The position numbers and the translations under genes are program-made. The notes beneath the pieces are model-generated. The model did no database searches. It had not been told where the DNA came from and saw nothing but the letters and a program-made list of their open reading frames with translations. A stretch of DNA of 64,000 nt, taken from the IMG/VR virus record IMGVR_UViG_3300025010_000055, positions 1-64,000 of that record; one strand, 5' to 3'. Origin of the DNA: a virus. Positions 2,186-45,916 of this stretch are shown here, in pieces; within the stretch, counting starts at the first letter, position 1, and each line of letters starts with the position of its first letter.

Positions 2186-3406
2186 TTGGGATTTTTCGGT
2201 TACGTAGCTAACTATTTTAAAAAAGACAACGAACTAACAGCCTCCAAAATAATAAACCTGTTGAATCAAGGCTACTCGTTAATGCAGATAAACAGGCGTT
2301 TGTACGACATACCAGAAGTCAGGACGGCGATAAATTTCGTAGCTGAGAAGGTCGGCAGTATACCGTTCTATCACGCGCGCGATGACACTGAGGGCAGCAT
2401 ACAAACCGTCTTTGACCGGTACCAGTACGTGTTGGGTATTAGGACTAACCCTTACCATTGCCCGCAGGTGTTTTGGACGCAGGTAATAACAACGCTACTG
2501 CTCACTAATAACAGCTTCATAATGCCGGATTGGGATGACAACGGTAACCTAAGGGCATTGTATCCGCTGCCGTTTACGCAGTTTGATTTTACTCAGGATG
2601 CTGACGGCAGACTGATAATTATTTTCCCGTCCTCTGGCAGTTACGCATTTTATTACGATGACATCATTCACCTGCAGCGGTTCCCGACCCAAAAAGGTGG
2701 GGCGGCCCGGCAGGCGGTAGGAAACTATGAGGAAATTGTAAACACGATGCAGGCACAGGCCGTGGGGGATAGTAAGAACAGTCAAAGGATAGCGGCGTTA
2801 CTGCAGGTTAAGACCCAGCTAAAAGGCTCAGACATGCTGAAAAAGCTGAATGAGTTTAAGGAACTGTTTTTAAGTGCTGAGAACACAACCGGCTTCGGCA
2901 TGATCGGTGCTGAGTATGAAGTACACAAATTGGATTTAAAGCTGAGCCCGCTGAATAAAGACCTGCTGGAAGCCATTATAGGGTATTTGTATAACTATTT
3001 TGGTGTTAGTAAGGAAATTATAACTCATACCGCTAGTGAGTTGCAGTATGAGCAGTTTATCGACAATACGATTAAACCGTATGCTTGGCAGATTGAGGAA
3101 GAACTTACTTACAAATTGTTTTCGGATACGGAGATATATCACGGCAACCGGGTTTATTCCGAACTGGTTGACTTGGAAATTAGCACGTTATCAGCAAAAA
3201 CAGCGTTTTACAAAGAAATGGTTTATGGAACAATAATGAGCCGTAACGAAATCAGAAAACGCCTGGGCCTCCCTAAGGGCCCGCCTGAGTTGGACAAGTT
3301 TCTTGAAAATAAAAACTTCCAGGTGCTAGGTGCAGGGAGTTATATTGTTGAGGGAGGTGATACGGATGGAGAAGGAAAAGAAGTCCCCGCTGGCACTGTT
3401 GAATAG
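2186..3406 (+). CDS. Phage portal protein (HK97 family)
   Basis: The 406-residue protein forms the dodecameric vertex ring through which DNA enters and leaves. It has the family's N-terminal segment ('VRTAINFVAEKVGSIPF', near residue 45), the central wing and a helical C-terminal crown. Length and position between terL and protease are typical. The start is TTG at 2186, 5 bp after GGAGGTGA. Its 3' end overlaps the protease gene by about 40 bp, consistent with translational coupling. Confidence 0.92.
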   Translation: MGFFGYVANYFKKDNELTASKIINLLNQGYSLMQINRRLYDIPEVRTAINFVAEKVGSIPFYHARDDTEGSIQTVFDRYQYVLGIRTNPYHCPQVFWTQVITTLLLTNNSFIMPDWDDNGNLRALYPLPFTQFDFTQDADGRLIIIFPSSGSYAFYYDDIIHLQRFPTQKGGAARQAVGNYEEIVNTMQAQAVGDSKNSQRIAALLQVKTQLKGSDMLKKLNEFKELFLSAENTTGFGMIGAEYEVHKLDLKLSPLNKDLLEAIIGYLYNYFGVSKEIITHTASELQYEQFIDNTIKPYAWQIEEELTYKLFSDTEIYHGNRVYSELVDLEISTLSAKTAFYKEMVYGTIMSRNEIRKRLGLPKGPPELDKFLENKNFQVLGAGSYIVEGGDTDGEGKEVPAGTVE

Positions 3407-3989
3407 AAAGCGGGTGCAGTTTGATGATGACAGGTCTAAATTCAGAGCGATAACAGAGGAAGTTGACGGACAGAATGTTAGACGGTTAAGGGGTTACCCG
3501 ATTCTGTTTAATGTTCCAGGCAAGCCGCGCAGACAAAGCCCATGGGTAGAAATAGTTAATCAAAATGCTTTAGTTGGCGTTGATTTGTCAAAGCTGGTTA
3601 TGTTATTTGATCACAACACTACTTGGGTATTAGGTAGGGTAGGCAAGAACATGCGGGCCGAGGTGGACGCTACCGGGTTGTTTGTTGAAGTAACTTTGGG
3701 CAACACATGGATCGATGACTATGTATTTGATAGGGTGAGTCGTGAGATTGTGGATGGAATGAGTTTTTGGTTTGATAGCAAGGCTGTTATTGCAACCAAC
3801 TGGGAAACCAAGACGGATATTATTATGCAGATAAATGAGATTTACGAGGTGTCTGTGCTGGTATTCCCTGCCTACGAGGATACTATTGTAGTCGCACAGG
3901 ACGAACCAGCTCCTGACCCGGTGCCTGACGATGCCGCAGAAATTGAGGCTAAGAAAATGGCTTTAATTAGCCTGATTAGCCAGTTATAA
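3366..3989 (+). CDS. Prohead maturation protease (HK97/U35 family)
   Basis: This 207-residue serine protease is predicted to trim the capsid protein delta domain during prohead maturation. The candidate catalytic His is in 'LFDHNT' (about residue 82) and the nucleophilic Ser in 'DGMSFW' (about residue 131), the pairing seen in HK97 gp4-like enzymes. The ATG at 3366 is chosen because GGAGGTGA ends 5 bp before it; an upstream in-frame TTG at 3330 lacks such a site. The gene starts inside the end of the portal gene. Confidence 0.9.
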   Translation: MEKEKKSPLALLNRKRVQFDDDRSKFRAITEEVDGQNVRRLRGYPILFNVPGKPRRQSPWVEIVNQNALVGVDLSKLVMLFDHNTTWVLGRVGKNMRAEVDATGLFVEVTLGNTWIDDYVFDRVSREIVDGMSFWFDSKAVIATNWETKTDIIMQINEIYEVSVLVFPAYEDTIVVAQDEPAPDPVPDDAAEIEAKKMALISLISQL

Positions 3990-4017
3990 AAAATTTAATC
4001 CACAGGAGGACAACGAA

Positions 4018-5241
4018 TTGCTTACAAAAATTAGCGCAAAAGAAGCCGCAGAACTTAAGCGGGAAAAAACGATGATTGAAGAAAAACGGCTGGCCCTGAA
4101 AGAGCAGGTTAAGAATCACAGGGGCATGTCTACTGAGGAACTGAACGAAACAGCCGAGAACCTCAGAAGCCTGTCCGATCGTATGGATGAAATTAACGAA
4201 AAGCTGAAGGCTGGTCATCAGGAGCAGCAGCGCAGCAGACTGCCGGGTCCTGGTAGTAGGAATAACGATATCACCCAGGAAAACTTCCGTTCCAGCGCCC
4301 AATACCGGGATGCTTTCTACCGTAGTTACGTAAGCAGCAAGATCAGTGAAGCCGATGCAGAAATTATGTCCTTCGGTAAACGCGCAGTCACAGACATGAA
4401 TGGTGGTAGCGTTACGAGTGGCGCCGAGTACCTTGTCCCCCAGACCACCCTTGACCGAGTATATGCAGTAATACAGCAGTATGGCCGTCTTTACTCTGCC
4501 ATTACCAAATTTGGATTCACCGGTGACGTGTCTCTGCCTATTGGTACAACTGGGGCGCCGACAGAAAATGCGGACGGAACAGTTACTCTTAACTTTACAA
4601 TTACGGAAGTTAAAATTAACCAGCAGGCTGTTGTTGCTACTATCATTGTTAAGAACCTGTTACTCAAAAACAGCATTCCAGCATTCGAACAGTATCTGGC
4701 AATGGAAATCGGTAAGTACATCGGGTTGCTACTTGAAAACTATGTTTTAAACGGATCGACAGTTACGTCCACTTTCCAGGGTATTATCACTGCGATCAAA
4801 GCGGCCAGCGCAGACAATGAATACACTAATATGGACTGGCGGCAACTATCCGAAATCCTTGCAGATGTTGAAAGCCCCTATGGTGATAACGGAAGTTGGG
4901 TAATGAAACGGTCAACTTTTTTCCGTGAATTTTTTGCCATGACTGATGCTGCAGGTAAACCGCTTGTAACAATAAACCCGGTGCAAGGTGGACCTGGTCA
5001 GTCTAATTTCCTAATAGTTGGTCAGCCTGTCATTTTCACGTCTCAAATGCCTGATACTGACTCAATTCTGTACGGTGATCTTAGTACCTACGTCGTAAAT
5101 GAGTCCGAGCAATTTATGATCGAGTCGAACACGTCTGAAAAGTTTAGTGAAGATAAGACGGTTTGGCGCGGCAAGGTATATTCAGGTGGTAAGCCGCTGT
5201 TTGCTACAGAAACATTCACTTACTACAAGAAAGCATCGTAA
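4018..5241 (+). CDS. Major capsid protein (HK97 fold)
   Basis: The 407-residue precursor has a charged coiled-coil N-terminus (about residues 5-75), which corresponds to the scaffold-like delta domain, followed by the capsid domain starting near 'ENFRSSAQYRDAF'. The TTG start at 4018 follows AGGAGGACAACGAA. It is placed right after the protease, as expected for a cleaved capsid precursor, and is followed by an intrinsic terminator, which is common after this highly expressed gene. Confidence 0.93.
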   Translation: MLTKISAKEAAELKREKTMIEEKRLALKEQVKNHRGMSTEELNETAENLRSLSDRMDEINEKLKAGHQEQQRSRLPGPGSRNNDITQENFRSSAQYRDAFYRSYVSSKISEADAEIMSFGKRAVTDMNGGSVTSGAEYLVPQTTLDRVYAVIQQYGRLYSAITKFGFTGDVSLPIGTTGAPTENADGTVTLNFTITEVKINQQAVVATIIVKNLLLKNSIPAFEQYLAMEIGKYIGLLLENYVLNGSTVTSTFQGIITAIKAASADNEYTNMDWRQLSEILADVESPYGDNGSWVMKRSTFFREFFAMTDAAGKPLVTINPVQGGPGQSNFLIVGQPVIFTSQMPDTDSILYGDLSTYVVNESEQFMIESNTSEKFSEDKTVWRGKVYSGGKPLFATETFTYYKKAS

Positions 5242-6584: not shown

Positions 6585-6853
6585 TGACAGACATGGAACT
6601 GCTAGAAAAGGTCAAGGCCGGGTTGGGTTTGTCTGGTGAGTATACGGATCCGGCCATACTGCCGAAGGTGTTGGCTACCAAAGGCTACATGGTCAACGCT
6701 GGGGTTACGGTAGAGCAGGTAGAATCGGATTTAGGCATAGTCTGCCTGACGGTGGGCGTGAATGACCTATGGAACCTAACAAGCGGGGAAGTAAAATTTA
6801 GCCCCGCTTTTGATATTATTTTATGGCAATTGAAGGCGGTGAGTATGCCATAG
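6584..6853 (+). CDS. Head-tail connector protein (gp6-like)
   Basis: An 89-residue helical protein whose C-terminal part ('GVNDLWNLTSGEVKFSP') matches the pattern of Firmicutes-phage head-tail connector proteins, which sit under the portal ring. The ATG overlaps the preceding stop (TAATG), so it is translationally coupled. The size is slightly short for gp6-like adaptors (usually about 95-110 residues). The assignment is by pattern and position. Confidence 0.65.
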   Translation: MTDMELLEKVKAGLGLSGEYTDPAILPKVLATKGYMVNAGVTVEQVESDLGIVCLTVGVNDLWNLTSGEVKFSPAFDIILWQLKAVSMP

Positions 6854-8298
6854 CTAAGATTGATAACATGACCCCTGGAACGGGCAGGAGATTGAAAGAA
6901 GACAGCACGACGGTTAACATTGCGGATAAGATAGAGGCCATAGCCGAGGCCTTGGATCTATCGACGCTGGCAACTAAGGATAACCAGGACGCTCAAACTT
7001 CTGCCCTAAACGATATACTGGAACAGCTTGAAATAGGTAATGCTCCTAACATATTAAGAAACACTGGTAAAAACCCTCCCGTTGGGGTTATTTTAGGCGC
7101 AGCCGGGACATATGAGTCAGACTCCATTGACAGACCAAATCAAAATATACCCGTAGGTCAAACAAGAGTATGGGTATATGCAGATCAATCCGGTACTCTG
7201 AATCTTCGGGAATCGCATAATGGAACTAATTGGACGACAACTAATTCTTTGTCTATATCTGCCGGAATAACCAATATAATGAACTGGTTTAAATTGACCC
7301 GTAGATATGCCAAGATTGAATACGTTAACGGTGGTGTAGCGCAAACAGAGTTTATTGTATTGCAATATTTCCTTGGCGTTGGAGTAACCATTATAAAAGC
7401 AGAGGATGGAGATATCGTCAGTATTGGTAGTAAAGCAGATGCTGCTGTTACAGATCCTACTTTGTCTGGTAGTGAGATTGCATTATTAAAGGGTTTGCTG
7501 ACAAAAATAAATACTATTATCGACGGTACTACCCCTGCTACTACCGTACTAACGGCAGGAAATAATTTCGTTGGAACTGTTAGTATATCCCCTGAATCTG
7601 ACGGGAATATCCTACAGGTGAATAGTGACGGTTCTATCAATGCCCAACTAATTGGTACAGACCCCAATAGTGGATCGTCTGTACAGCAGAGCATTGTCGA
7701 TATGGAAGGATTTGGTGTTGCTCCTGTCCAGATCAGAGGGAGTAATCAAGTCGGGGGAACAATGGATGCCAGTGTTGTAGATGTTGACACAGACGCTGAA
7801 AATATACATGGTGCGGTATCTGTGTCGTGGAGAAAATCAGGTGTCGGCGCTCCAGAATTTGGTACAGATGCTAACCCTGTCGCTATCAAACTAACTGGTA
7901 GTATACCTTCGGGAAATAATACGGTTGGAAATATCGGCATAAACGCTGGTTCTAATTTAATCGGAAAAACTGCAAACAATTTTCAGGAAAGAGTGTTTAA
8001 CTTGATTGTTGGGGCAGGTGCAACAGTAACAAGTGACACCTACCAACTTGAAGGAAGAAAATTAGTAGGAATTTTTATTACAACAGGAACGGGAACAACG
8101 TATACACTGAGAATACGATACCTGAAAGCAAATGAAGCAGCTCCATATGGTCAGACGGATGTTGTAACTTCAAAAACTGGAGCTAATTCATTTGATGTAT
8201 ATACTACAGGGTGGGAAGCTTCATTTTATCGTTTAGCTATTACTGATATTGGTGGTGCTGGTTTTACGGCAACAATTAACTTAAAGGAGAGAGATTAA
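6823..8298 (+). CDS. Large virion structural protein, beta-rich
   Basis: A 491-residue protein whose N-terminus 'KIDNMTPGTGRRLKED' opens a helical segment (to about residue 75), followed by beta-sandwich-like sequence. It overlaps the previous gene by 31 bp if ATG 6823 is used, but that ATG has no ribosome site. AAGGCGGTGA at 6834-6843 instead points to initiation at ATA 6850 or ATG 6868. The last 300 bp are noticeably more AT-rich than the gene start. The function is unknown; neck, whisker or accessory tail roles are possible. Confidence 0.7.
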   Translation: MAIEGGEYAIAKIDNMTPGTGRRLKEDSTTVNIADKIEAIAEALDLSTLATKDNQDAQTSALNDILEQLEIGNAPNILRNTGKNPPVGVILGAAGTYESDSIDRPNQNIPVGQTRVWVYADQSGTLNLRESHNGTNWTTTNSLSISAGITNIMNWFKLTRRYAKIEYVNGGVAQTEFIVLQYFLGVGVTIIKAEDGDIVSIGSKADAAVTDPTLSGSEIALLKGLLTKINTIIDGTTPATTVLTAGNNFVGTVSISPESDGNILQVNSDGSINAQLIGTDPNSGSSVQQSIVDMEGFGVAPVQIRGSNQVGGTMDASVVDVDTDAENIHGAVSVSWRKSGVGAPEFGTDANPVAIKLTGSIPSGNNTVGNIGINAGSNLIGKTANNFQERVFNLIVGAGATVTSDTYQLEGRKLVGIFITTGTGTTYTLRIRYLKANEAAPYGQTDVVTSKTGANSFDVYTTGWEASFYRLAITDIGGAGFTATINLKERD

Positions 8299-8299
8299 T

Positions 8300-8566
8300 T
8301 TGCAAATAATTGATAGTTTACCAAAAGATTTAATGGACGAAACACAAGTAATATTGCCGTGTGCAGGTATAGATGATGAAGATAATTGCATGGAAGGTAC
8401 AGCTAGTATTGATTTTATAGTTTTGAAATTTCAGATTGACGGAAAAGAAAAACCTCTTTCAGAAGATGACTTGCAAAATATATATAATATTTGCGACAGT
8501 ATGGGTGTATATGGAGAGCCGTGGAGTCGTAGTTGGTCAATTTGGAGAGAACAAGGACTTGCCTAA
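8300..8566 (+). CDS. Small acidic protein of unknown function
   Basis: This 88-residue acidic protein starts at TTG 8300 behind AAAGGAGAGAG and directly follows the large structural gene (1-bp gap). It has no recognisable motif; Cys residues near 20 and 29 could bind a metal or be incidental. The gene is AT-rich like the end of its upstream neighbour, so the two may have been acquired together. Because it is co-directional with structural genes it may be a tail-fibre accessory or chaperone, but this is only inferred from position. Confidence 0.6.
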   Translation: MQIIDSLPKDLMDETQVILPCAGIDDEDNCMEGTASIDFIVLKFQIDGKEKPLSEDDLQNIYNICDSMGVYGEPWSRSWSIWREQGLA

Positions 8567-8608
8567 CTAACGAAGGTGCGAATTTTAGGTATATAGTTAT
8601 TTAGTTAG

Positions 8609-8637
8609 TTGCGATAAGACTCGATATATGGTATAAT
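8609..8637 (+). promoter_or_regulatory. Sigma-A-type promoter ahead of broken integrase
   Basis: TTGCGA (8609-8614), a 17-bp spacer and a perfect TATAAT (8632-8637) lie just upstream of the integrase remnant. Having its own promoter in the middle of a structural operon marks the remnant as a former independent cassette. Confidence 0.65.
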
Positions 8638-8658
8638 TAATGACAAATAATCATAAAG

Positions 8659-9501
8659 GTGGTTTTTGTTATTAATATACTCGAATCGTGGCCTAGATAT
8701 GAGAGAGATAAGAAATTTCTCAATTATTCGCCGCATACACTAAAGGCATATAAGATACAATGCCGACTTTTATTTTCAATGCGTTAGGTAAAAACCCCCG
8801 ACTTCCAGTCGGGACAGCTTTAGCATAAATGGTTGGTGGTATAGTCCATGAAGCATCGGAAAAATCACTACATGGTGAGTCCATGTGTTGTAGTTGGTTT
8901 TGCGGTAGAAATGCCACTAGGCTACTTATAGATGCTCGCTCTGAAATTGTGAGAAACCTCCCACTACTCGTAGAAATGCCACTAGGCTACGTATAGAGCC
9001 AAGCTTTAAAAATCTACCGATAACATACAGAGTTGCGGTTTAGTATGGTCTGCAAGTTTCAGTTGCAAGCTTAAGTCTGCTTTAGCAAGAGGACTTCCAG
9101 ATGACTTTAGTCTTAATTGCGACTTCCAGTCGCTTTTCGAACCCCTGCACTTCTAGTGCAGGGTCGTTGAGTTTAATTCAAAATGTCTCTTTTGGCTTAA
9201 AAAATACGTCGAACTAAGAAACGATAATAGTCCTGCCCTATTTGTTACTGACCGCGCCCCAAGACGTATGAGTATAGCGCGTATGAGAGAAATAATTAAG
9301 GCGGTTGCTATTCGTGCGGACATTGAAGCAAGTGTCTATCCCCACAGATTAAGACATTCTTATGCCACTCATTTATTGGACAATGGTGCCCCAATGGAGG
9401 CGATACAGCAACTTATGGGGCACGCCAAGCAGGAAACAACCCAAGTGTATGCTCAGCTTTCCGGTGAGCGCAGAAAAGAATTATATAAGAGGTATTTTTA
9501 G
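8659..9501 (+). pseudogene. Tyrosine recombinase remnant, interrupted and internally deleted
   Basis: The 5' fragment (about 8668-8790) encodes a recombinase N-terminal SAM-like start including 'SPHTLKAYKIQCRLL'. A 407-bp element then intervenes, after which the frame resumes at about 9175 with 'LFVTDRAPRR' and the catalytic end: 'HRLRHSYATHLL', 'LMGHAK' and 'TTQVYAQL' (the His-x-x-Arg, His and Tyr of XerC/D-like enzymes). Roughly 130-150 residues of the middle, including the first catalytic Arg, are missing, so more than a simple insertion has happened. A short ORF from 9268 could still make the C-terminal piece, but it could not act alone. It is unrelated in sequence to the intact phage integrase at 43.7 kb. 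Confidence 0.8.
8768..9174 (+). mobile_element. 407-bp non-autonomous IS200/IS605-like element, copy A
   Basis: This segment is identical, base for base as far as I can read, to the reverse complement of 41508-41914. It has no ORF. It carries terminal-type hairpins with a shared core: CCCGACT-TCC-AGTCGGG (8797-8813), GCGACT-TCC-AGTCGC (9119-9133) and CCCTGCACT-TCT-AGTGCAGGG (9143-9163). It also holds two copies of a 21-nt unit beginning GTAGAAATGCC (about 8905 and 8971). Lack of classical inverted-repeat ends plus subterminal palindromes fits single-strand-transposing IS200/IS605 derivatives (palindrome-associated MITEs). A structured-RNA role is possible. The boundaries are defined by where the two copies diverge. 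Confidence 0.75.
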
Positions 9502-9533
9502 CCGCCTTTGGGCAGCTGCGGGAGGTGAACACA

Positions 9534-9866
9534 GTGAAAGTAAAAAGACTTCCCCACGGAATCAAGCTACAAAAACTAGCAACGCCAGCGACAAAAGGTA
9601 GGCTTGGCGGCGAAGTCAAGGTTTGGGAGGATTACGCGACTGTGCTGGCTTTCGTTCAGCCTCTCAATGGCCGTGAGTATTTTGCAGACAAACAGGTACA
9701 GGCCGAAACGTCGCACAAAGTAACTATGTGGTATCAGCCTGGTATCACCTCAGAGATGAGGGTAATTTTTGGCGGTAAGGTGCTTGAAATTGAATCTGTG
9801 ATTAATATCGATGAGCGAAATATTGAACTGCAGTTGATGTGTGTCGATAAAGGTGGGGTTGTGTAA
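9534..9866 (+). CDS. Head closure / head-tail adaptor protein (SPP1 gp16-like)
   Basis: A 110-residue beta-barrel-like protein with the family pattern 'TVLAFVQPLNGREYF...' followed by '...ITSEMRVIFGGKVLEIESV'. These proteins plug the connector after packaging. GTG at 9534 is chosen because GGAGGTGA at 9521-9528 sits 5 bp before it. The gene resumes the structural operon after the integrase/element interruption. Confidence 0.82.
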   Translation: MKVKRLPHGIKLQKLATPATKGRLGGEVKVWEDYATVLAFVQPLNGREYFADKQVQAETSHKVTMWYQPGITSEMRVIFGGKVLEIESVINIDERNIELQLMCVDKGGVV

Positions 9867-15671: not shown

Positions 15672-18600
15672 GTGGCAGTAACAATCCTAACACCGGCTGA
15701 CCTGGACGACGTAAGAAATAACCTTGACGGTGATTATGTCCTTGGTGCCGATATTGATCTGATTGGATACGCAAACTGGGTACCCATCGGAGATGAAGCA
15801 GATCCTTTCACTGGTAAGATAGACGGATCGATATACGAAATATCAAACCTGACGATAGATAGGTCAACTACGGACAACGTGGGACTTTTTGGCGCTTGTC
15901 AGTCTAACGTTTTGGCAAATGCTCCTAACTTAAAAAACATAACTATCACAGGTGCATATGTCACCGGGCAGGATAATGTTGGAGTGCTTGCAGGTAAAAT
16001 CACGACTGACAAATATACTACAGATGGTTTTAATCTCATAGAAAACTGCTCATCAACTGGAGTCATAGTGGGCAGAACTAACGTGGGCGGCCTTGTTGGT
16101 TGTGCCGAAGGCGTTGAGGCTGGGGTAGACTACGGCGACGAGGATTATTACCACATCGGCAGAATAGCGTCAAGTTACTCCTTAGTTGCCGTAACCGGAT
16201 CTGGCGAGAATATCGGTGGTCTAGTCGGGTATTTGAAATATTTGAAAGCCTACCAGTTCCACGCAACTGGCACAGTCACGGGTGGCGACGTTGTCGGTGG
16301 TTTGGTCGGTTACTATTATGACTGCTCCTGTGAGTTTTGCTACGCGACAGGCAATGTCACCGGGGAAAAATGTGTCGGTGGTTTGGTCGGTTACGCTGGC
16401 GATAGATCGCTAATCAGAAAATCCTATGCCGAGGGCGATGTAACTGGGACAGAGGCTATTTCTGAACCCGAAATTTGGAATACAAGTCATATCGGTGTCG
16501 GTGGCTTGGTCGGATTTATGGATTTTGAGCTAATAGATAGATGTTATGCGCTCGGTGATGTGGTCGGTAGTTACCGTGCTGGTGGTCTGGTTGGCGCTGG
16601 GAATGGTGGTGGGTACAGATCGCCCAACATAGCTAATTCCTTCGCCCAGGGCAATGTCAGTGCGATAGGGCATGTTGGCGGCGTAATAGGTTATGTATTC
16701 CCGTATTATCTGGACTTCCGGAATGTGTATTGCACAGGTTCTGTGACTGGCAATAGGAGAGGGGCGATTATAGGCTATCGTGGCGCTCCATATTTTCCTG
16801 ATGATCCGATAGGCACCATAACGTACGAGACCCCGGCATATTACAACAGTGACACAAATACCGCTACCAATACCCATGGCGGCGAAGGCAAGACTACAAA
16901 CGAACTTGGTATTGAAACAACGTACCAAGAAGACTGGTTTAGTTTCGACTACTATTTTGTGATCGACCAAGACGAAAGCGTTTATCCTATCCTGAAAATA
17001 TTTTACGATCCGCTGGGAATAGTCATTTCAGCAGTAAAAGGTAGTGTAGCGCAGGGACTTGTTTGTGCTTATACGGTTGACGGGGTGACGTATTACCGAA
17101 AATTTGACGGTGCATCTTGGGCTGCTGCGTTTGAAGTGACTGAAGTGCCTCCCGGTACAGATACACTGAATACGTTTAAAACAAACGATGACAGGATCGG
17201 ATTTGCTGCCGATGTTGATGGAGTTATGACACTGTCTTTGACAGAGCAAGACAGTATGACTATTGAATACATCAAAACCCTGCCGTCTGGGACATGCGGT
17301 AATTTGATTCAGACTATCGAGGACGTACCTAAGCTGTACTATGTCAACGCGGTTCAATCCATGAGTAAGAGTGAGGCTGTTTTTTCAGATGACTGGGGAT
17401 CGCTTGCTTTTAGCAGCGCGATGAACATGGCTTCTGATAGCTATATCTCGCGACTGAAAGCAAAGTATTTTGACAGCAAAACCTGGCTTGCTTGGCGTTC
17501 GAGAGGGCAGCACAGGATATTCCCACAAATCGAAGCTGCAGAAGAGGAAGAAGCGTTGAAGTTGGCGAGTGGTAGTATAACGCTTAGGCAAGATACTCCT
17601 GTAGTTTCGGTCAGCCTTGAAGTTGATAGTTTCGACAGGACAGAAGAGGTTATACCTGAAACTCCGGAAGAAGTTACTGTTATCGGTTATCAGGGGGTTA
17701 CGCCTTTAACCGAAGTACCGGAAGGATATACAGGTATTTATTCTGTTACTGACATGCTTGCCGTAACTGGTAATATGGCAGGAAATTACATTCAACTGGT
17801 TAATTTGGACATGTCGGCTTACCCTAATTGGGTACCATTAGTAGGAGATCCGAATGGATTATTAGAAGGAATATTTGACGGAAACGGTTATAAAATAACT
17901 GGATTTACGGGGGCTGGTCTTTTCGTAGGCACTCACCCAACTGGAATAATAAAAAATGTACGGCTTATTGACGTGAATATCAATAAGCCGTATGACGATG
18001 TTTCCGTCATTATAACCCAATATCACTCAGGTAAAATACAAAATTGTTATGTTAGTGGCAATATCATTGGGGATGATTGTAATGGTATTTCTGCTGGTAC
18101 TTATTATGGAGATTCTGAAATAAGTAATTGCACAGTAGAGGCTACAATTGTAGCTTATGGACGTGCTTCTGGTATAGCTTCTAATTACGAGTCTAAAATA
18201 ATTAATTGTACTGTAAGTGGTAATATATCAGCAATTGATTCAGTAGGTGGTATATGCCAATACAACAATGGCAAGGTAGAAAATTGCATAGTATTGGCAA
18301 ATGTTTCAGCTATTGGGAATGTAGGAGGCTTGATTCAAGGTAGCTTTTCCGATATTCCAATTAAAAATTGTTCTGTTTTTGGTAACGTATCATCCGTAGA
18401 AGGTGATGCTGGTGGGTTAATTCAATATGCTGGCTATGACGAAAATCAATCTTTAGCAGGCTTAGAGGATTGTCACACCAGGGGCAATGTTAATTCATCT
18501 GGTGAAAATAATGTTAATGTGGGCGGTTTAGTATCGTTTTTAGAAATATCTACTCTAAGATGTTACGCTACTGGAGATGTTACAGCCGTTAACGAAGATT

Positions 18601-20036
18601 ATAACAGTGTAGGAGGATTCGCCGGTTTTATTGGAGGAGGCGACGTTGATGAGTGCTACTCCCTTGGTAATGTCACAGGACAAGGTGCTGTAGGTGGGTT
18701 TGTTGGTGAACTGTGGAAATCCCCAGAAGGCAAGATAACTGATTGTTACGCTAAGGGAAATGTTTCAAATGACTCAATCGCTGGTCAAACAGGTGGGTTT
18801 ATTGGTATTGGTGATTATGAAATTGAAAATTGTTATTCTGTAGGTAAAGTCAACGGGCAGAATACAGATACGGGTGGCTTTGTAGGATGGAGTGTATTTT
18901 TATTACCTTACCCTGACGGTGGTGGAGGGATAGTTACTTCATGCTATTATGATTCCGAAACTTCAGGTCAAAGTGATACTCATGGAGGCATATCTAAAAC
19001 AACAGCAGAAATGAAAACTCAGTCAACATTTGTTAATTGGGATTTTACTATATGGAAACTATCTAGTATTACAGAAGGTTATCCGGCGCTGAAATGGCAA
19101 ATGGGCAACGATGAAAACGTCCCAAACTATCCTCCTGCATCGAAAATAAAATTAAACTTCAAGGCAGGAGATTCCGATCCCTTACTCATGGGATCTTTTT
19201 ACGTTGACAGGACAAGCTTCACAGTCGGTAGGGCGAATGTTGGCGTAGATGCGCGTAATAGCATAGGGAAGTATCTCAAAGACCAAACGTTCGACGAACG
19301 AAATATCTACGTCAAACAGCAGATACAGTTATTATTAGCTCAAATCCTTGCCAGTGCAGGCATAACTAACTATTACGTAGGCCCGGAAACAGCCGAGCTG
19401 GGCATGGAGTTTTCGCCCAACCAGGACATCCTAAGCGGCATTAACGACGTCCTTACGACTATTCGAGACTGGCAGGTAAGGGAAGAACCAGACGGCAAGG
19501 TAGTCATTGCAGAGCGTACAGATACAGCATTTACACAGCCTGGGACGTATACATTTTACCGTAATAGGGACGTGTTTAGCCGGTCGGTAACTAAGGATGA
19601 TAGCAACACGTATGGCCGGGTGTGTGTGCATACGTCGGATTTTTCGGTCAAAGCGTATAGGCCAGTGTCGTCAAATCTGGGTTGGTTGCCTCCTGCGCAG
19701 AAAACGCTATACCAGCAATGCCCGGATGGTACTACATCAATCCAGGCTGCGGCATTGGCGACTGAGATAGCGGAGAGGCTGAGTAATTCTGGAGAGGTTG
19801 AGGAATTTGTAGGACCAATCAGGCCACAGTTGATGCCGGGGGATGGGGCGCAGATTATTGACGAGGACGGACCTAACTTGCTTGGTACCATTACGACGGT
19901 TACGCATCGTTTCGGCAAAGATGGGTTTTATACGCAGTTTACGGTGGATAGTGGCGGTAAGATTAATAAGCCGCTATTGTCGGATTATCTAAAGCAGATT
20001 TCGGCAGGGACGGTAAAATCCAAGATAACCAGCTAA
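15672..20036 (+). CDS. Giant GLUG-repeat tail protein (host-contact fibre/tip)
   Basis: This 1,454-residue protein is the largest in the window. It carries two arrays of GLUG-type beta repeats (units like 'GGLVGY', 'CYATGNVTG'): about residues 1-440 and 670-1160. They flank a middle domain (about 450-660) and are followed by a C-terminal domain of about 290 residues ('ILASAGITNYYVGPETAEL...') that looks like a tail hub/tip domain. GLUG repeats are found in bacterial and phage adhesins. The second array (about 17.7-19.1 kb) is clearly more AT-rich than the rest, so it was probably swapped in. GTG 15672 follows GAGGTGATAAT. Confidence 0.82.
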   Translation: MAVTILTPADLDDVRNNLDGDYVLGADIDLIGYANWVPIGDEADPFTGKIDGSIYEISNLTIDRSTTDNVGLFGACQSNVLANAPNLKNITITGAYVTGQDNVGVLAGKITTDKYTTDGFNLIENCSSTGVIVGRTNVGGLVGCAEGVEAGVDYGDEDYYHIGRIASSYSLVAVTGSGENIGGLVGYLKYLKAYQFHATGTVTGGDVVGGLVGYYYDCSCEFCYATGNVTGEKCVGGLVGYAGDRSLIRKSYAEGDVTGTEAISEPEIWNTSHIGVGGLVGFMDFELIDRCYALGDVVGSYRAGGLVGAGNGGGYRSPNIANSFAQGNVSAIGHVGGVIGYVFPYYLDFRNVYCTGSVTGNRRGAIIGYRGAPYFPDDPIGTITYETPAYYNSDTNTATNTHGGEGKTTNELGIETTYQEDWFSFDYYFVIDQDESVYPILKIFYDPLGIVISAVKGSVAQGLVCAYTVDGVTYYRKFDGASWAAAFEVTEVPPGTDTLNTFKTNDDRIGFAADVDGVMTLSLTEQDSMTIEYIKTLPSGTCGNLIQTIEDVPKLYYVNAVQSMSKSEAVFSDDWGSLAFSSAMNMASDSYISRLKAKYFDSKTWLAWRSRGQHRIFPQIEAAEEEEALKLASGSITLRQDTPVVSVSLEVDSFDRTEEVIPETPEEVTVIGYQGVTPLTEVPEGYTGIYSVTDMLAVTGNMAGNYIQLVNLDMSAYPNWVPLVGDPNGLLEGIFDGNGYKITGFTGAGLFVGTHPTGIIKNVRLIDVNINKPYDDVSVIITQYHSGKIQNCYVSGNIIGDDCNGISAGTYYGDSEISNCTVEATIVAYGRASGIASNYESKIINCTVSGNISAIDSVGGICQYNNGKVENCIVLANVSAIGNVGGLIQGSFSDIPIKNCSVFGNVSSVEGDAGGLIQYAGYDENQSLAGLEDCHTRGNVNSSGENNVNVGGLVSFLEISTLRCYATGDVTAVNEDYNSVGGFAGFIGGGDVDECYSLGNVTGQGAVGGFVGELWKSPEGKITDCYAKGNVSNDSIAGQTGGFIGIGDYEIENCYSVGKVNGQNTDTGGFVGWSVFLLPYPDGGGGIVTSCYYDSETSGQSDTHGGISKTTAEMKTQSTFVNWDFTIWKLSSITEGYPALKWQMGNDENVPNYPPASKIKLNFKAGDSDPLLMGSFYVDRTSFTVGRANVGVDARNSIGKYLKDQTFDERNIYVKQQIQLLLAQILASAGITNYYVGPETAELGMEFSPNQDILSGINDVLTTIRDWQVREEPDGKVVIAERTDTAFTQPGTYTFYRNRDVFSRSVTKDDSNTYGRVCVHTSDFSVKAYRPVSSNLGWLPPAQKTLYQQCPDGTTSIQAAALATEIAERLSNSGEVEEFVGPIRPQLMPGDGAQIIDEDGPNLLGTITTVTHRFGKDGFYTQFTVDSGGKINKPLLSDYLKQISAGTVKSKITS

Positions 20037-22100: not shown

Positions 22101-22786
22101 CGCCAACACAGCTAATTAGACAAGCTGCACTCAAAACCCCAGCTGTGCCCGTGGCTATGGGTAAAACCATAGAGTATGCCGATGTGCCACTAGAAACCGT
22201 ATCAGATCAAAGGTGCTGGCTATGTGGAGGTAAAACGGGGGGACAAGGACAGTCCATCAAGAAAGCTATCAAGCCTACCTTTACTGACAGAGACAAGGCC
22301 CGCGTACCGCACAGCAATTCTATTTGCCCTGGTTGTGCTTTCTGCTTGTCATATTCACCGCTTAGGAATTACAGCATTTTGGCGACGTTGGACGGCCTGA
22401 GACACCCTACAAGGCCGGAAGTCAAAGAATTGCTACTAGACCCACCAGAACCGCCTTTTGTGCTATGTATTGCAGTGTCAGGGCAGAAGTGGCTACATTT
22501 CCGCTCGAAGGTTGCGTATTCAAGGGATGGGTTCCCGGCGCAGTTGGAGGAAACGCCGATATGTGTAGAGAGGACACTGCTCCGAGAATGGCTAGAAGCT
22601 ATTGAACACCTTTATACCGTCTTTACCAAGGAGGAAATAAAGACAGGACACTACAGCCAGAACCGGATCAAGACTTTTGGCCTGTCAGAATTCCAGTTAG
22701 TTGACGGGAAAATATCGGGGGTGAGAGGGACAAGGCTTTTTGATTTAGCCGTCTTTGTTGCTCAGAAAAGAGAGGAGGAAAAATAG
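22076..22786 (+). CDS. csf1: Type IV CRISPR-Cas large subunit Csf1-like
   Basis: This protein resembles Csf1, the zinc-containing large-subunit analogue of type IV effector complexes. It has 'RCWLCGG' (Cys 47 and 50) and 'ICPGCAFC' (Cys 84, 87, 90), a four-Cys-type zinc finger, then a mixed alpha/beta body. The frame is open upstream of the first ATG/GTG and encodes 'ILTPTQLIRQAALKTP', which looks like a genuine Csf1 N-terminus. GGGAGGGAGGG (22056-22066) lies just before ATT 22073/CTG 22076, so a non-standard start is likely. GTG 22145 is the conventional alternative and lacks a ribosome site. Confidence 0.78.
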   Translation: MENKTQILTPTQLIRQAALKTPAVPVAMGKTIEYADVPLETVSDQRCWLCGGKTGGQGQSIKKAIKPTFTDRDKARVPHSNSICPGCAFCLSYSPLRNYSILATLDGLRHPTRPEVKELLLDPPEPPFVLCIAVSGQKWLHFRSKVAYSRDGFPAQLEETPICVERTLLREWLEAIEHLYTVFTKEEIKTGHYSQNRIKTFGLSEFQLVDGKISGVRGTRLFDLAVFVAQKREEEK

Positions 22787-23253
22787 TGCATTACAATTTT
22801 GACACGACGGATGAGAACGCCGCCACTGCTGCCTTGATGGTGTACGCCGTTTATCGTAGCAGGGACGTTAAACGGTTTAAAATCAACCCGGAAATGTGGA
22901 CAAGAATTGAAAACGCCGTGAAATCAGCTGCAAAGCGCGCCGGGGATCTTGGAGATTTCATTGAAAAATTGAAACCAAAGCTGCAGTGCGGAACTATTCA
23001 CCCGCGATGGGCAAAAACAATTCCCGATGGCATGGTAAGTATGCGTGTAATGCCGGACGGATCGGTTATCGAAGTGGCAGACAGCGGAAAGAGGCAGTTC
23101 CTTACGGACGTTTTGAATGAAGTAGACCACAAAGCGGTTCTAGATCATCTATATCGAAAAACTGCAATTACCGTACTATTAGTCAGAGATAGGCAAGAAA
23201 GAGAAAAACCTATTGAAGTAAAATTAGGGGAGGATTTTATAAATGTCGAATAG
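22786..23253 (+). CDS. Type IV-B small subunit, Cas11-like candidate
   Basis: A 155-residue, mostly helical protein placed between csf1 and csf2, exactly where type IV-B loci encode the small subunit Cas11 that lines the effector backbone. The helical N-terminal half (about 8-70) includes 'RDVKRFKINPEMWTRIENAV'; the rest is mixed. It starts at GTG overlapping the csf1 stop (TAGTG) and overlaps csf2 by 11 bp. The identity is inferred from context and size because Cas11 sequences are poorly conserved. Confidence 0.6.
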   Translation: MHYNFDTTDENAATAALMVYAVYRSRDVKRFKINPEMWTRIENAVKSAAKRAGDLGDFIEKLKPKLQCGTIHPRWAKTIPDGMVSMRVMPDGSVIEVADSGKRQFLTDVLNEVDHKAVLDHLYRKTAITVLLVRDRQEREKPIEVKLGEDFINVE

Positions 23254-24226
23254 TATTAGATTAGACGGAAAAATCACATTATTGTCTCCTTTATCCCATA
23301 TAGGTGAGTCGAGCGGAATTGACAGTTTTTTGTCAACAGATACCGTTATTGGCATGGATGGCAGACCTCTGGAAGTATTTACCTATAGCGGCAACGCTTT
23401 TCGTGGTCAACTCAGGGATCTTGGTGCCTCATATCTCACGGAAAAACTAGGGAATATTAAGTACAGCCCGGAGCTGTTTTACCTGCTGTTTTCTGGTGGT
23501 TCGCTTGGTGGTGCTCAGTCGGTGGACATTGACCAGGCCCGTATGTATCGCAGAAACATTCCGCTGTTATCCGTGTTTGGCGGTGGCGTAGGAAATCAGA
23601 TCCTAACTGGGAAAATAAAAGTTGGGGCTATGTACCCGCTCACGGAAGAATGTCAAAGGATCATCCCGGAACACCTCAGAGACGAAAATGCGCCAAGCTG
23701 GAAGCAATGGACGTTCGACAAGAGCTTTACCCGTATGGACGATGCGAAGAACGAGAATATGAGAAAATACCTAACAGGTAGCGAAACAGACGGACTTGCT
23801 ATAGCCGGACAAGTTGAAGCCGACAGCAAGAAAAAGAAGAAGGAAGATCCCCCGCAGCAAATGCGTTACACGGTGGAAATGCTGGCTGCCGGTGCGGTGA
23901 TGTATCAGCGGATTGATTTATGCGATTTGTCCGATTTGGAGCTTGGAGCTTTTGTGTCAGCATTAACAAAATTGTCAGAACATGCCTATATTGGGGGAAA
24001 ATCAGGTACGGGTCATGGACTTGTAGATATAGAATATACATGGAGAAAAGCCGGTCAAAAAGATTCGGAAGGTACTTTTTTGAAGATTTCCTCTGACTGT
24101 TTGTGGCTGTCGGAACCAGCGGAAGAAGCCAAGAAAACCTATGATCAGTTTTTGGTTGCGTTATACGATCGTTATTTGGAGGACAACGCTCCTGAACTGA
24201 CCAAGTTGTTGACTGGGGGAAAATAA
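23243..24226 (+). CDS. csf2: Type IV CRISPR-Cas backbone subunit Csf2 (Cas7 family)
   Basis: This 327-residue RAMP protein would polymerise along the guide RNA as the Cas7-type backbone. It begins with a RAMP-like first strand followed by 'LSPLSHIGESSG', has 'YSGNAFRGQLRDLGA' (about 52-66) and 'SGGSLGGAQSVDID' (about 84-97), and ends with a Gly-rich 'IGGKSGTGHGLVDIEY' typical of Csf2/Cas7 folds. A Lys-rich insert lies near 192-200. GGGGAGG precedes ATG 23243. The length is close to the usual for Csf2. Confidence 0.86.
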   Translation: MSNSIRLDGKITLLSPLSHIGESSGIDSFLSTDTVIGMDGRPLEVFTYSGNAFRGQLRDLGASYLTEKLGNIKYSPELFYLLFSGGSLGGAQSVDIDQARMYRRNIPLLSVFGGGVGNQILTGKIKVGAMYPLTEECQRIIPEHLRDENAPSWKQWTFDKSFTRMDDAKNENMRKYLTGSETDGLAIAGQVEADSKKKKKEDPPQQMRYTVEMLAAGAVMYQRIDLCDLSDLELGAFVSALTKLSEHAYIGGKSGTGHGLVDIEYTWRKAGQKDSEGTFLKISSDCLWLSEPAEEAKKTYDQFLVALYDRYLEDNAPELTKLLTGGK

Positions 24227-24916
24227 ATGCAGCCTTTGAAAATTACTGCAGTTTTGCAAGACGGCAGAATAGCGGGAGTAGATCCATATTTTCCTTTAGA
24301 TTCCATCATGGCAGCCGAATGGATGCGGAGAAACCATCCTGAAGCATATTACAATGCCAGTAGTCACCTGTTGACCAATGACATGATCATACCGGATCTG
24401 CCGCTGGAGCGTATTGGAGGCGGTGAGGATTGGTACTTTGCTTGTAGCTTCAATACGATCCCGCCAATCTCTGAATATGTCATGCACTGGCACAAGAGGT
24501 TTGACGATCAGCTTGAGCAGCATATCGACTTTGCGGGTAAGCGGGGCAAGGTGGACATTAAATCAGGCAAAAACAAGGCATACAGGATGCCTTTGGTGGT
24601 GCAGTTATTCGATAGGCTAGAATGGTTTGCTGTGGGTGATTTAGAGGCAGTACAGGATTTAGTCTTAGGCATTACCCACTTAGGAAAGAAAAGTAGCCAG
24701 GGGCTTGGAGCGGTAAATTATTGGACTGTTGAGGAATGGCCGGAGGATTGGAGCTTTGTCAGGGACGGTAAGCTGACCAGGGCCATACCGATCGGTCATG
24801 GATTTCCCGTTGGAGTGCAGGTAGCAAAGATGGCTTTGTACGGCATCAGGTCGCCTTACTGGCACACAGAAAATCAGATGGTTTGCATGATGCCGGAGGT
24901 GTTGCAACGTGATTAA
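24227..24916 (+). CDS. csf3: Type IV CRISPR-Cas subunit Csf3 (Cas5 family)
   Basis: This 229-residue RAMP protein is predicted to cap the 5' end of the guide RNA. The start 'LQDGRIAGVDPYFPLDSIMAAEWMRR' region is characteristic of Csf3, and a Cas5-type Gly-rich loop 'HLGKKSSQGLGAV' occurs near residues 148-160. It begins one base after the csf2 stop and overlaps the cas6-like gene by 8 bp. It has the expected size. Confidence 0.82.
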   Translation: MQPLKITAVLQDGRIAGVDPYFPLDSIMAAEWMRRNHPEAYYNASSHLLTNDMIIPDLPLERIGGGEDWYFACSFNTIPPISEYVMHWHKRFDDQLEQHIDFAGKRGKVDIKSGKNKAYRMPLVVQLFDRLEWFAVGDLEAVQDLVLGITHLGKKSSQGLGAVNYWTVEEWPEDWSFVRDGKLTRAIPIGHGFPVGVQVAKMALYGIRSPYWHTENQMVCMMPEVLQRD

Positions 24917-25562
24917 AATAGCTTTGCCCGTCGAATTTAACGACGGCAAACAACTGCATGACGCTACCTTAAAGCTTATAAGCATGGTATCACCGGCAAT
25001 AGCAAAAATTATTCACTCAGATCATAATTATAAGCCATTTAGCGTACAATTGCCGAACATTGTTAATATCCTTGATCCCGCTTTGGAATCTGTCGCTAAT
25101 AGTTTTACAAACGTCAAGATACTAAAGCAGTTAAGTTTTGCGGAGTGCTTCGGCGGGGAGCCGGACAAGTTTCTCAATCTTATATTTAGCCGAACGCTTT
25201 TCAGGCATCCAGGTGCAAGCTATCCACTGCCGGATCCGTGGAATGTTATTACCTCTTGGAAAAATCGCTGGAATAGCATTTCACCCATAAAAGTAACCAT
25301 TTCCTTACCGATAGCACAAGATCGTAAAAGTGCTCGGGTAGAAATACAGTATATGAAGATTGACACGGCTAAGATTCAAATTGCAGATTATCGGCCGGTT
25401 ATTACTTTTAGTGGTCCTGTAAAAATAAAATGGCTCGGTGACGAAAAGGAGCTTCGAGAGCTTTGCGCTCTGGCCAAATTTGCAGAGTTTGCGGGAACTG
25501 GTTCAAAGACTACAATGGGGTGCGGGGTGACTAGCATTGCAGGATTGGCGGGAACTATATAG
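24909..25562 (+). CDS. cas6: Cas6-like CRISPR RNA endoribonuclease
   Basis: This 217-residue protein has the Cas6 ferredoxin-fold plan. The N-terminus ('LHDATLKLISMVSPAIAKIIH') carries possible catalytic His at 36 or 39, 'SYPLPDPWNVITSWKNRWN' sits at about 104-122 as in the middle of Cas6, and the C-terminal Gly-rich loop 'GTGSKTTMGCGVTSI' is at 196-210. Cas6 enzymes cut CRISPR repeats to make guide RNAs. Type IV-B loci usually lack cas6, so its presence here is unusual; an alternative is a divergent RAMP subunit such as Csf5. GTG 24909 overlaps the csf3 end. Confidence 0.68.
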   Translation: MIKIALPVEFNDGKQLHDATLKLISMVSPAIAKIIHSDHNYKPFSVQLPNIVNILDPALESVANSFTNVKILKQLSFAECFGGEPDKFLNLIFSRTLFRHPGASYPLPDPWNVITSWKNRWNSISPIKVTISLPIAQDRKSARVEIQYMKIDTAKIQIADYRPVITFSGPVKIKWLGDEKELRELCALAKFAEFAGTGSKTTMGCGVTSIAGLAGTI

Positions 25563-26304
25563 ACTGCACGCAAAACTGCCAGCGTTCAGGAAACGGCTAG
25601 AAAAAACAAAAGCTATCATTTCCGAAGCGTTGCAGTCTATTTCAAAGCCCTACGTTGCAGTCTCCTTTGGGAAAGACTCTATTGTTCTGACACATCTACT
25701 TATTCAGCAGAAAAAAGATATTCCGATAGTCTGGTCAGACCGTGGCCCGGAAGCTGAACTGCCGGAAACTTACCCGTACATAGAAAAAATAAAAGCTATG
25801 CACGGGATAAACCTGCAGGTTATTTATCCGTCAATGTCGATGTTTGAAATATACAGAAGGTACGGACTGCCTGAGATAGACGATGGAGTTACAAGGTCTA
25901 TCGTGAAAGAGGTAAATCTTGTCCTTGCTTTCGCTGAATATGTTCGGATAAACGACATTGACGGGTATTTTCAAGGACTCAGAGCCGAGGAGAGCAACGG
26001 CCGGAGATGGTACGCCAAGAAATACGGACATATCCACTACAGAAAAAGGGACAATCTGATTGTCTGCAACCCACTCCTGCACTGGTCAGCAAGGGACATT
26101 TGGGGGTATATTGTTAGTCATGACATACCCCACCATCCCGAATATGACAACGAAAGATTTAAAAACCGTGAAATGATACGGCTGAGCAATTGGAGCGGTC
26201 TATATTGGGCGCAAAACGGCAGGATGGCAGAGCTAAGATACTACCATCCTGAGCTTTATCGGCAGTTAGTTAATGAATTTCCGGAGGTAAAAACATTTGT
26301 ATAA
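25537..26304 (+). CDS. cysH: CysH-like PP-loop enzyme (PAPS reductase family)
   Basis: The 255-residue protein has the PP-loop 'SFGKDSIV' (43-50) that binds the nucleotide pyrophosphate, 'GLRAEES' (147-153) and 'NPLLHWSARDIWGYI' (about 173-187), all signature motifs of PAPS reductase/CysH-DndC-like enzymes. A cysH-like gene is a known companion of type IV-B loci. It starts at TTG 25537 inside the cas6-like gene (26-bp overlap). The real substrate is unknown; a role in nucleic-acid or complex modification, rather than sulfur assimilation, is an inference. Confidence 0.85.
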   Translation: MQDWRELYRLHAKLPAFRKRLEKTKAIISEALQSISKPYVAVSFGKDSIVLTHLLIQQKKDIPIVWSDRGPEAELPETYPYIEKIKAMHGINLQVIYPSMSMFEIYRRYGLPEIDDGVTRSIVKEVNLVLAFAEYVRINDIDGYFQGLRAEESNGRRWYAKKYGHIHYRKRDNLIVCNPLLHWSARDIWGYIVSHDIPHHPEYDNERFKNREMIRLSNWSGLYWAQNGRMAELRYYHPELYRQLVNEFPEVKTFV

Positions 26305-27226
26305 TTTTTTGTACGGCAATCTAAGGCTAGGGAACTTCCAAAAAGGGATCACGTTGGCCGCGTCCTGGGCATGGGGAGTTTCTATTATAGTAGGGATGCA
26401 AATATTCCAGACAAAGGGTATTGAGTCGTTTGCGATTTGGGCAGCGGCAAACTCCCTTACTTTAGCACTGTTGGGATGGATATTTACAAAGGTACCTGCA
26501 GAAGTGTCAATGCTGTCGGAGCTTATGCCTGCATGGGGCATACCAATATATTCAGCACTCACTTATGCTATTCAGTTTTTTTCTGTGCTGGTGAACATAA
26601 CGGCAATAAAAACAGCGTTTAAGATGCTTGGTTTTGTGGATTATTGGCCCGTGTTCGTTGCCCTGGTATTTGCTGGTGTCTTTCTGTGGGGTTTTAGTCA
26701 TGCGGTTAAGGGGAATATAGTCAAATACTCTTTATGGATGGCTTTGCTTTTATATGTTTTGTGGGTGCCAGCGCAGGTTAGGCTTATCCAATCAACTACT
26801 GCTGACATAAATTTTGCACTGTACGGGGCTTTGATCCTGTTTTGTGCTCCAGTCCTTGATCAGCAGATGTGGCAACGTAGGAAGGCTTTTGGCGCTGGGA
26901 TAAAGCCTTTCCTGTGGGCTAGTGGACTGTTTGCGCTTTACATGGTTATGGTAGGTCTGGCAGCTGCTGTTGGTGTCGGTGGTTATACTGTATCTTTGGT
27001 GATACTTCTGGTGGCCGGATCTACTCTGGCAAGTGCCTTGTCTGCTATATCTTGCTATCACAAAACAAAAAATAGTGCCAGGGTGGGTATGGTGTTAGTA
27101 TTTTTTTTGGCTGCAACTTGCACTATTTTTAACCTGTCAGTCATTCAAATTTGGGTACTATACGGATCCCTGAGAATACCGTTTGCTTTGTTTGCTTTCT
27201 ATAGAATACTTTCCAGGAAGTCTTAG
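26297..27226 (+). CDS. Polytopic membrane transporter, APC/SSS-like
   Basis: A 309-residue protein with about nine to ten hydrophobic helices and few charges, starting with 'GNLRLGNFQKGITLAASWAWG'. The unwound first-helix style Gly-rich start and overall layout recall sodium/solute symporters of the APC superfamily, but it is shorter than most. TTG 26297 is preceded by GGAGGT and overlaps the cysH stop by 8 bp, so it is the last gene of the IV-B operon. The substrate is unknown; supply of a sulfur-containing or nucleotide precursor to the CysH-like enzyme is one possibility. Confidence 0.7.
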   Translation: MYNFLYGNLRLGNFQKGITLAASWAWGVSIIVGMQIFQTKGIESFAIWAAANSLTLALLGWIFTKVPAEVSMLSELMPAWGIPIYSALTYAIQFFSVLVNITAIKTAFKMLGFVDYWPVFVALVFAGVFLWGFSHAVKGNIVKYSLWMALLLYVLWVPAQVRLIQSTTADINFALYGALILFCAPVLDQQMWQRRKAFGAGIKPFLWASGLFALYMVMVGLAAAVGVGGYTVSLVILLVAGSTLASALSAISCYHKTKNSARVGMVLVFFLAATCTIFNLSVIQIWVLYGSLRIPFALFAFYRILSRKS

Positions 27227-27445: not shown

Positions 27446-27952
27446 ATGACAAAGAAAATCAATTGGGTAGAAATTTTAGAGCAGAACGAAGAGGCCATTT
27501 TGGAGGCAGGACGCCAGGCTTACAGAAACTCTTGCCTAAGCAGTTACGACAACAGCTTCAGCAGCACGGAAGACGTTGTTATCGACAAGGACGGGGGCAT
27601 CCGCACAGAGACACAACAGCAGAACTGGCAGAGCATGGACACCTACCACGGCAACGCGATTTGTGTTATCAGCTTCAAGAGGTTTTATGTTTGGGAGAAC
27701 GTGGAAGAAGAAACCGAGATTAAAACTATGTTGGAACCTTCTGAGCTAGAAGAATTCCAAGCCTACCTAGACGAGAACGAGATAACAAGTTGGGGTATAA
27801 GTACAGTACGCGATTGGAATTCAGCTATTGCCGATAGACTTGACAGCGAAATGGGGCAATACGATTATGATGCGTATGTCGAGGAGCAGGTTGCTAGTCA
27901 GTACGAGCAATGCCTTGAGCGCACCAAAGCCGAAGCTGAATTTTCCGAATAG
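27446..27952 (+). CDS. Acidic hypothetical protein
   Basis: A 168-residue acidic protein, first gene of the accessory block. ATG 27446 follows GAGAGGAGATAAATATT. It contains several Trp/Tyr-rich stretches and a C-terminal acidic helix. No family was recognised. Its strong promoter and acidic character would suit a protein-binding inhibitor, but that is speculative. Confidence 0.65.
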   Translation: MTKKINWVEILEQNEEAILEAGRQAYRNSCLSSYDNSFSSTEDVVIDKDGGIRTETQQQNWQSMDTYHGNAICVISFKRFYVWENVEEETEIKTMLEPSELEEFQAYLDENEITSWGISTVRDWNSAIADRLDSEMGQYDYDAYVEEQVASQYEQCLERTKAEAEFSE

Positions 27953-27965
27953 TCCGCTAGGTACA

Positions 27966-28000
27966 GTCCCGTGCAGGCCGGGACCGGGGAGAAATCCCCG
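27966..28000 (+). other. Tandem intergenic RNA hairpins
   Basis: GTCCCG-TGCAGGC-CGGGAC (27966-27984) is followed directly by CGGGG-AGAAAT-CCCCG (27985-28000). There is no T-run, so a terminator is unlikely. Similar hairpins occur in other gaps of this block (28619-28633, 29654-29678, 30794-30808, 31625-31648, 34856-34882). Confidence 0.6.
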
Positions 28001-28036
28001 CTAAGCTTAAGGAGTAAATTAAAGGAGGAATTTTAG

Positions 28037-41507: not shown

Positions 41508-41914
41508 AAACTCAACGACCCTGCACTAGAAGTGCAGGGGTTCGAAAAGCGACTGGAAGTCGCAATTAAGACTAAAGTCATCTGGAAGTCCTCTTGCTAA
41601 AGCAGACTTAAGCTTGCAACTGAAACTTGCAGACCATACTAAACCGCAACTCTGTATGTTATCGGTAGATTTTTAAAGCTTGGCTCTATACGTAGCCTAG
41701 TGGCATTTCTACGAGTAGTGGGAGGTTTCTCACAATTTCAGAGCGAGCATCTATAAGTAGCCTAGTGGCATTTCTACCGCAAAACCAACTACAACACATG
41801 GACTCACCATGTAGTGATTTTTCCGATGCTTCATGGACTATACCACCAACCATTTATGCTAAAGCTGTCCCGACTGGAAGTCGGGGGTTTTTACCTAACG
41901 CATTGAAAATAAAA
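41508..41914 (-). mobile_element. 407-bp non-autonomous IS200/IS605-like element, copy B (inverted)
   Basis: The exact reverse complement of 8768-9174 as far as can be read, with the same hairpins and the same two 21-nt internal units. It lies between genes ending at 41466 and starting at 41934 and contains no ORF. Flanking bases differ from copy A, which shows both are separate insertions. Perfect identity points to recent copying or ongoing gene conversion. Confidence 0.75.
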
Positions 41915-41933: not shown

Positions 41934-42170
41934 ATGAAAACTAGATTAGACGAAGTAATCGCCCAGGTGCAGGAAAAAATTAAAGCTGAAAACTTACGCA
42001 TTGCCTACTGCCAGCGTAAAGTTGAAGAAACTATGAAAAGCGGGTTAGACGGCGTTACGGTAGCGGATACAATTAGAGTTTATAATCAGCTAATGCGGGA
42101 AATAGAAAATGGAATAGATGCTCTTGATACGCAACTATCAGACCTAAAATACATAAGGGGTGATGTTTAA
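41934..42170 (+). CDS. Small coiled-coil protein
   Basis: A 78-residue protein that is almost entirely amphipathic helix ('LDEVIAQVQEKIKAENLRI ... LMREIENGIDALDTQLSDL'). ATG 41934 follows TATGGAGGCCAAAACAC. It has the size of small phage dimerising factors. The function is unknown. Confidence 0.6.
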   Translation: MKTRLDEVIAQVQEKIKAENLRIAYCQRKVEETMKSGLDGVTVADTIRVYNQLMREIENGIDALDTQLSDLKYIRGDV

Positions 42171-45857: not shown

Positions 45858-45916
45858 TTAATTGTTCGACCAGTCATAAATTTACCACAACTCAGATTTT
45901 AATTCTGTAACCGTCG

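Follow-up and report, generated by a model that had tools for sequence, protein, structure and literature searches.

Palindrome-associated transposable elements (PATEs) were first described in Haloquadratum walsbyi (PMC3119063), and a PATE-like copy is found in Halanaerobium (PMC7290912). They have palindromic ends and no transposase gene (PMC3119063), and these are also the features of an element that is present in two copies in the genome of a temperate siphophage. The virus record comprises 66,969 nt, of which the window, the whole stretch of DNA that was analysed, covers 64,000. It is highly probable (about 0.88) that both copies represent one non-autonomous element of the IS200/IS605 family, which belongs to the PATE class and would be mobilized by TnpA acting in trans.

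The element pair and its hairpins

The repeat search found only one long inverted pair in the window. Exact comparison of its two arms, which are separated by 32,333 nt, showed identity at 407 of 407 positions (100% complementary), and chance is ruled out as the source of such a pair. A third copy is absent from the 66,969-nt record. The element holds no ORF of at least 80 aa, the longest stop-to-stop stretch in the six frames being 73 codons, and no tnpA remnants are found inside it. Because the copies are 100% identical, their transposition is likely to have been recent. The features of the two copies are as follows.

8768-9174, + strand: element copy 1, the 407-nt identical unit, with the element proper at about 8774/8777-9172/9174, after the target-like TTTTATTTT
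8768-8776, + strand: TTTTATTTT, left flank common to both copies and probably target-side sequence; TTTATTTT is native in the xerC gene of another phage's contig (L042)
8797-8813, + strand: left-end (LE) hairpin CCCGACTTCCAGTCGGG (copy 2: 41869-41885)
8905-9011, + strand: two internal tandem copies of GTAGAAATGCCACTAGGCTAC..., with a spacing of 65 nt
9143-9163, + strand: right-end (RE) hairpin CCCTGCACTTCTAGTGCAGGG (copy 2: 41519-41539)
9161-9172, + strand: conserved terminal RE motif GGGTCGTTNAGT, common to 8 of the 8 elements compared
41508-41914, - strand: element copy 2, identical and in opposite orientation

The element proper is estimated at ~398-400 nt rather than 407 nt, because the ~9 nt on its left side, TTTTATTTT, probably belong to the target and are common to both sites. 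Subterminal hairpins lie at both ends on the same strand, with ACTTCYAGT cores at 8801, 9122, and 9149 and a ACTTTAGT core near 9104. The first-pass annotation had described two identical 407-bp copies in opposite orientation, devoid of an ORF and with hairpins built on ACT-TCY-AGT cores, and all of this was borne out. Terminal inverted repeats are not present; the best match between the terminal 15-mers reaches 7 of 15 positions, which is equalled in 94% of shuffles. At the right end, cleavage is expected at the end of GGGTCGTTNAGT. In all eight elements compared, an AAC 5′ of the RE hairpin faces, as read by eye, a GTT 3′ of it (NAAC versus GTTN), and the fourth base pairs in four of the eight. 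Such facing triplets are expected from the pairing between guide and cleavage site that has been described for IS608 (PMC5934647).

The folding of the element also raises the question of whether it could be a gene for a structured non-coding RNA, such as a guide RNA of TnpB/IscB or a riboswitch, in two copies. The predicted fold of the element (+) strand is better than that of 100 out of 100 dinucleotide shuffles (z -3.4, compared to -2.5 on the - strand), and the internal tandem repeats are themselves structured. However, palindromic DNA folds well for the reason of transposition alone, and the ends match those of IS200-type elements with TnpA only. Moreover, covariance-model searches of the whole window and of the element up to E 10 returned no Rfam family of relevance, noise aside, either among guide RNAs of TnpB/IscB or among riboswitches. 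Collectively, an RNA gene appears very unlikely. The internal tandem sequence was not found elsewhere, an exact 21-mer probe from the tandem core giving 0 matches in the viral and genome collections. A group I intron or IStron, which was considered for an ATAGTCC motif at ~8840, was rejected on account of the motif's position at the wrong end and the absence of an Rfam match.

The xerC locus at copy 1

Copy 1 separates the N-terminal from the C-terminal fragment of a gene for a xerC-like tyrosine recombinase.

8668-8767, + strand: N-terminal fragment of xerC, approximately residues 1-34 of 279
9175-9501, + strand: C-terminal fragment of xerC with one half of its catalytic domain (PF00589 positions 76-169); the part between the two fragments is missing

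The L042 contig carries an intact xerC of 279 aa, which is 93% identical on the left flank of the element and 90% on the right. It holds an uninterrupted and unduplicated TTTATTTT^AATTC where the element ends in the window, with 2 nt of ambiguity in the alignment and the adjacent 405-nt deletion blurring the exact cut. This suggests that the target was occupied without duplication, and the TTTTATTTT left of both copies is thus best read as target-side sequence. The idea that TTTTATTTTC is native to both sites was discarded on comparison with L042, which showed it to stand in place of different xerC sequence on the left and to agree with native target sequence on the right.

Approximately 405 nt of xerC directly upstream of the insertion and its target are missing, so the gene is dead, and the missing part is found nowhere else in the record. 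Between the anchors, 407 nt of the element occupy the place of 413 nt in L042. The first-pass annotation was right that a real element lies here and overlooked this replacement of ~405 nt of xerC. An insertion together with an adjacent deletion is the simplest reading of the locus. However, a simple insertion does not explain a deletion of nearly equal length, which counts against the main reading; the near-equal lengths may be due to chance or to an artefact of gap filling at the left junction. It is most improbable that single-strand transposition, or repair at a hairpin, exchanged 405 nt of xerC for the element of ~400 nt in one event, and to our knowledge an insertion of this replacement type has not been described for IS200/IS605 elements. 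Copy 1 illustrates that such elements can inactivate a phage recombinase gene.

Together with ~100 nt upstream, starting near CTAACGAAGGTGCGAAT, xerC is ~90% identical between window positions 8566-9502 and L042 positions 3386-4328, and positions 4001-4336 of a further contig (L043) belong to the same comparison. The window and L042 are otherwise unlike around xerC, and 6853-9524 of the window is absent from a related phage (L004). It looks as if a recombinase cassette moves between phages.

Copy 2 precedes a small gene at 41934-42170, the start of which is ~20 nt away. Searches found no viral relatives of this gene, and consequently no empty site is available for copy 2; another related phage (L032) is without the region around it.

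The segment between the copies

A contig from a second assembly, IMGVR_UViG_3300001242_000064 (32,535 nt), spans the intervening segment and extends 101 nt into the element on either side. It is identical to the window in the compared parts, and its length fits exactly. Its element junctions independently confirm the right-hand junctions of both copies; for the left-hand ones, the record of the window is the sole source. Because the second assembly broke inside the repeat, this contig cannot show the orientation of the segment and reads alike for either, and the orientation in the window is the only one known. This is a caution for genome assembly in that the order of the 32 kb in the record is not checkable from the other assembly, since both ends of the contig lie in the repeat.

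These data bear on whether one or both copies, or the replacement of xerC by the element, might have been produced by assembly or gap filling. The left-hand junction of copy 1 occurs only in this record, the 407 nt that replace 413 nt of xerC are suspiciously similar in length, and the break points of the second assembly coincide exactly with the repeats. In contrast, the presence of both right-hand junctions in the second assembly argues that the two insertion sites are real, and the target TTTATTTT is native in the xerC of L042. An artefact is therefore considered unlikely, and two genuine insertions of one mobile element are preferred.

Homologous recombination between the copies, of the RecA or ERF type, could possibly invert the 32-kb segment by accident, because the copies are identical over 407 bp and an annealing protein of the ERF family is among the phage's gene products. 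The first-pass annotation had suggested such a flip; nothing observed speaks for it, and an inverted isomer was not found. The same two facts could be taken in favor of a functional invertible switch that flips the segment with its tail, lysis, CRISPR, and accessory genes and thereby alters phage expression or host range. However, the copies are mobile elements with the ends of a family rather than recombinase sites, and the sole recombinase gene adjoining a copy is broken by that very copy. Furthermore, in L004 (80% nucleotide identity at the terminase), the region corresponding to 6853-9524 is lacking, and the sequence continues with a gene that is homologous to the one at 9525-9866 and points the same way. 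This gene order and direction across the junction of copy 1 indicate that the orientation seen in the window is ancestral there, and L032 gives weak support for the window orientation at the junction of copy 2. The ends of the second assembly's contig inside both copies are neutral in this respect. No feature points to a programmed switch, for which we see very little probability; the inverted pair is without a demonstrated role and is ordinary parasitic DNA.

Some other features of the phage genome are worth recording. The segment contains a type IV-B-like CRISPR effector operon at 22145-27226, encoding Csf1/Cas8, Cas11, Csf2/Cas7, Csf3/Cas5, a Cas6-like protein, and a PAPS-reductase (CysH-like). 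Directly after it, at 27949-28019 on the + strand, lies a twister-sister self-cleaving ribozyme (40.5 bits compared to the Rfam gathering cut-off of 34). Imperfect 53-nt direct repeats at 16261-16394 and 18658-18710 are located inside a large ORF (15672-20036), which is likely to encode a repeat-bearing tail or adhesin protein. In addition, two 54-nt direct repeats at 45901-45954 and 49308-49361, which are 83% identical and have a conserved, palindrome-like TCACAAAAACGGTGTGAATTT core, flank genes near the repressor/integrase module and are possible operator sites.

Relatives and comparison with known elements

A DNA search of phages and plasmids with the element at E 1e-5 gave no match, and no close relative of the 407-nt core was found in phage, plasmid, viral, or genome collections, so the homology concerns the ends only. 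At a relaxed limit, the last 33 nt of the element match three Deinococcus plasmid loci at 88-91%. This right end (…ACCCCTGCACTTCTAGTGCAGGGTCGTTGAGT) is also that of IS200-type elements bearing a Y1 transposase, namely in Deinococcus pDrdB and in a Syntrophaceae MAG. In pDrdB, 22 nt separate the match from the stop of the preceding tnpA, which is annotated as IS200/IS605. At the two loci of Deinococcus sp. QL22, it is preceded by ~500 nt that are closely alike between the loci and, read by eye, seem to resemble a decayed tnpA.

The right-end pattern ACCCCTNNACTNNNAGTNNAGGGTCGTT has 21 fixed bases and a chance expectation of ~0.1 in the genome collection of 257 Gb, where it occurs four times (L028, L029, L030, and L031); in viral contigs it occurs only in a twin of this phage. 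L030, the Syntrophaceae MAG, has an intact Y1 transposase gene (PF01797, E 3e-41), and its product shares 47% identity with TnpA from Deinococcus. The elements of L028, L029, and L031 are ~190-230 nt long, lack a transposase, and have a hairpin at the right end. The left ends are also alike (GGTAAAAACCCC-hairpin versus GGTGGAAACCCC-hairpin); the left-end score is reached by 0 of 2000 shuffles for L031 and by 18 of 2000 for L028, and the likeness to the left ends of the Deinococcus elements is not above chance in the shuffle test. A left-hairpin pattern, CTTNNAGTNNNNACAGCTTTAGC, was dropped because its 11 viral matches are all chance coding sequence. A search for the right-end pattern in 395 genomes from the phylum of the Syntrophaceae MAG and 396 from that of the Acidobacteriaceae MAG yielded no copies beyond those already known, suggesting that the family is sparse.

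The assignment to the PATE class is based on the recurrence of the right ends both with Y1 TnpA and in transposase-less elements, one of which clearly shares the left end. The proposal of the first-pass annotation that the copies are non-autonomous elements of the IS200/IS605 type is supported by the right end beside Y1 TnpA genes and by the subterminal palindromes, together with the lack of terminal inverted repeats and, apparently, of a target duplication. A classical MITE, as a derivative of a DDE transposon, requires terminal inverted repeats and target site duplications, neither of which was found, and was rejected.

A gene for TnpA was not found in the 66,969-nt record. We infer that the subterminal hairpins would be recognised, on one strand, by a Y1 HUH TnpA supplied from elsewhere in the host cell, which would excise the element as a single-stranded circle. 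The element would be inserted on the 3′ side of all or part of TTTATTTT, a short T-rich target, with no target duplication. By this route copy 1 would have entered the phage xerC, the loss of the adjacent 405 nt belonging to that event or to a later one. The transposase-less IS200/IS605 elements thereby gain a member that resides in a phage, and their right ends can be recognised in Deinococcota, Acidobacteria, Gammaproteobacteria, and Syntrophaceae as well as in this phage.

Like the PATEs (PMC3119063), the element has no ORF and no terminal inverted repeats, shares subterminal palindromes with IS200/IS605 transposons, and has a short target at the left that appears not to be duplicated. It differs from them in its longer internal part (~400 nt) with tandem structured repeats and in its location in a siphophage genome, in which no parent element was found. 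With the Deinococcus IS200-type element of pDrdB, downstream of the tnpA gene DVJ83_RS15010, it has in common the hairpin and the terminal motif of the right end (30 of 33 nt), whereas the Deinococcus elements carry tnpA and differ in the left end and internal sequence. The elements in MAGs of Acidobacteria and Gammaproteobacteria (L028, L029, and L031) are shorter (~190-230 nt without tnpA), with another core and a left flank of TTARTG. Both these and the TnpA-bearing L030 have the same left-end GGTNNAAACCCC and hairpin as the phage element, a likeness that is significant for L031 and weaker for the others, and all four share with it the right-end hairpin ACCCCT..ACT...AGT..AGGGTCGTTNAGT.
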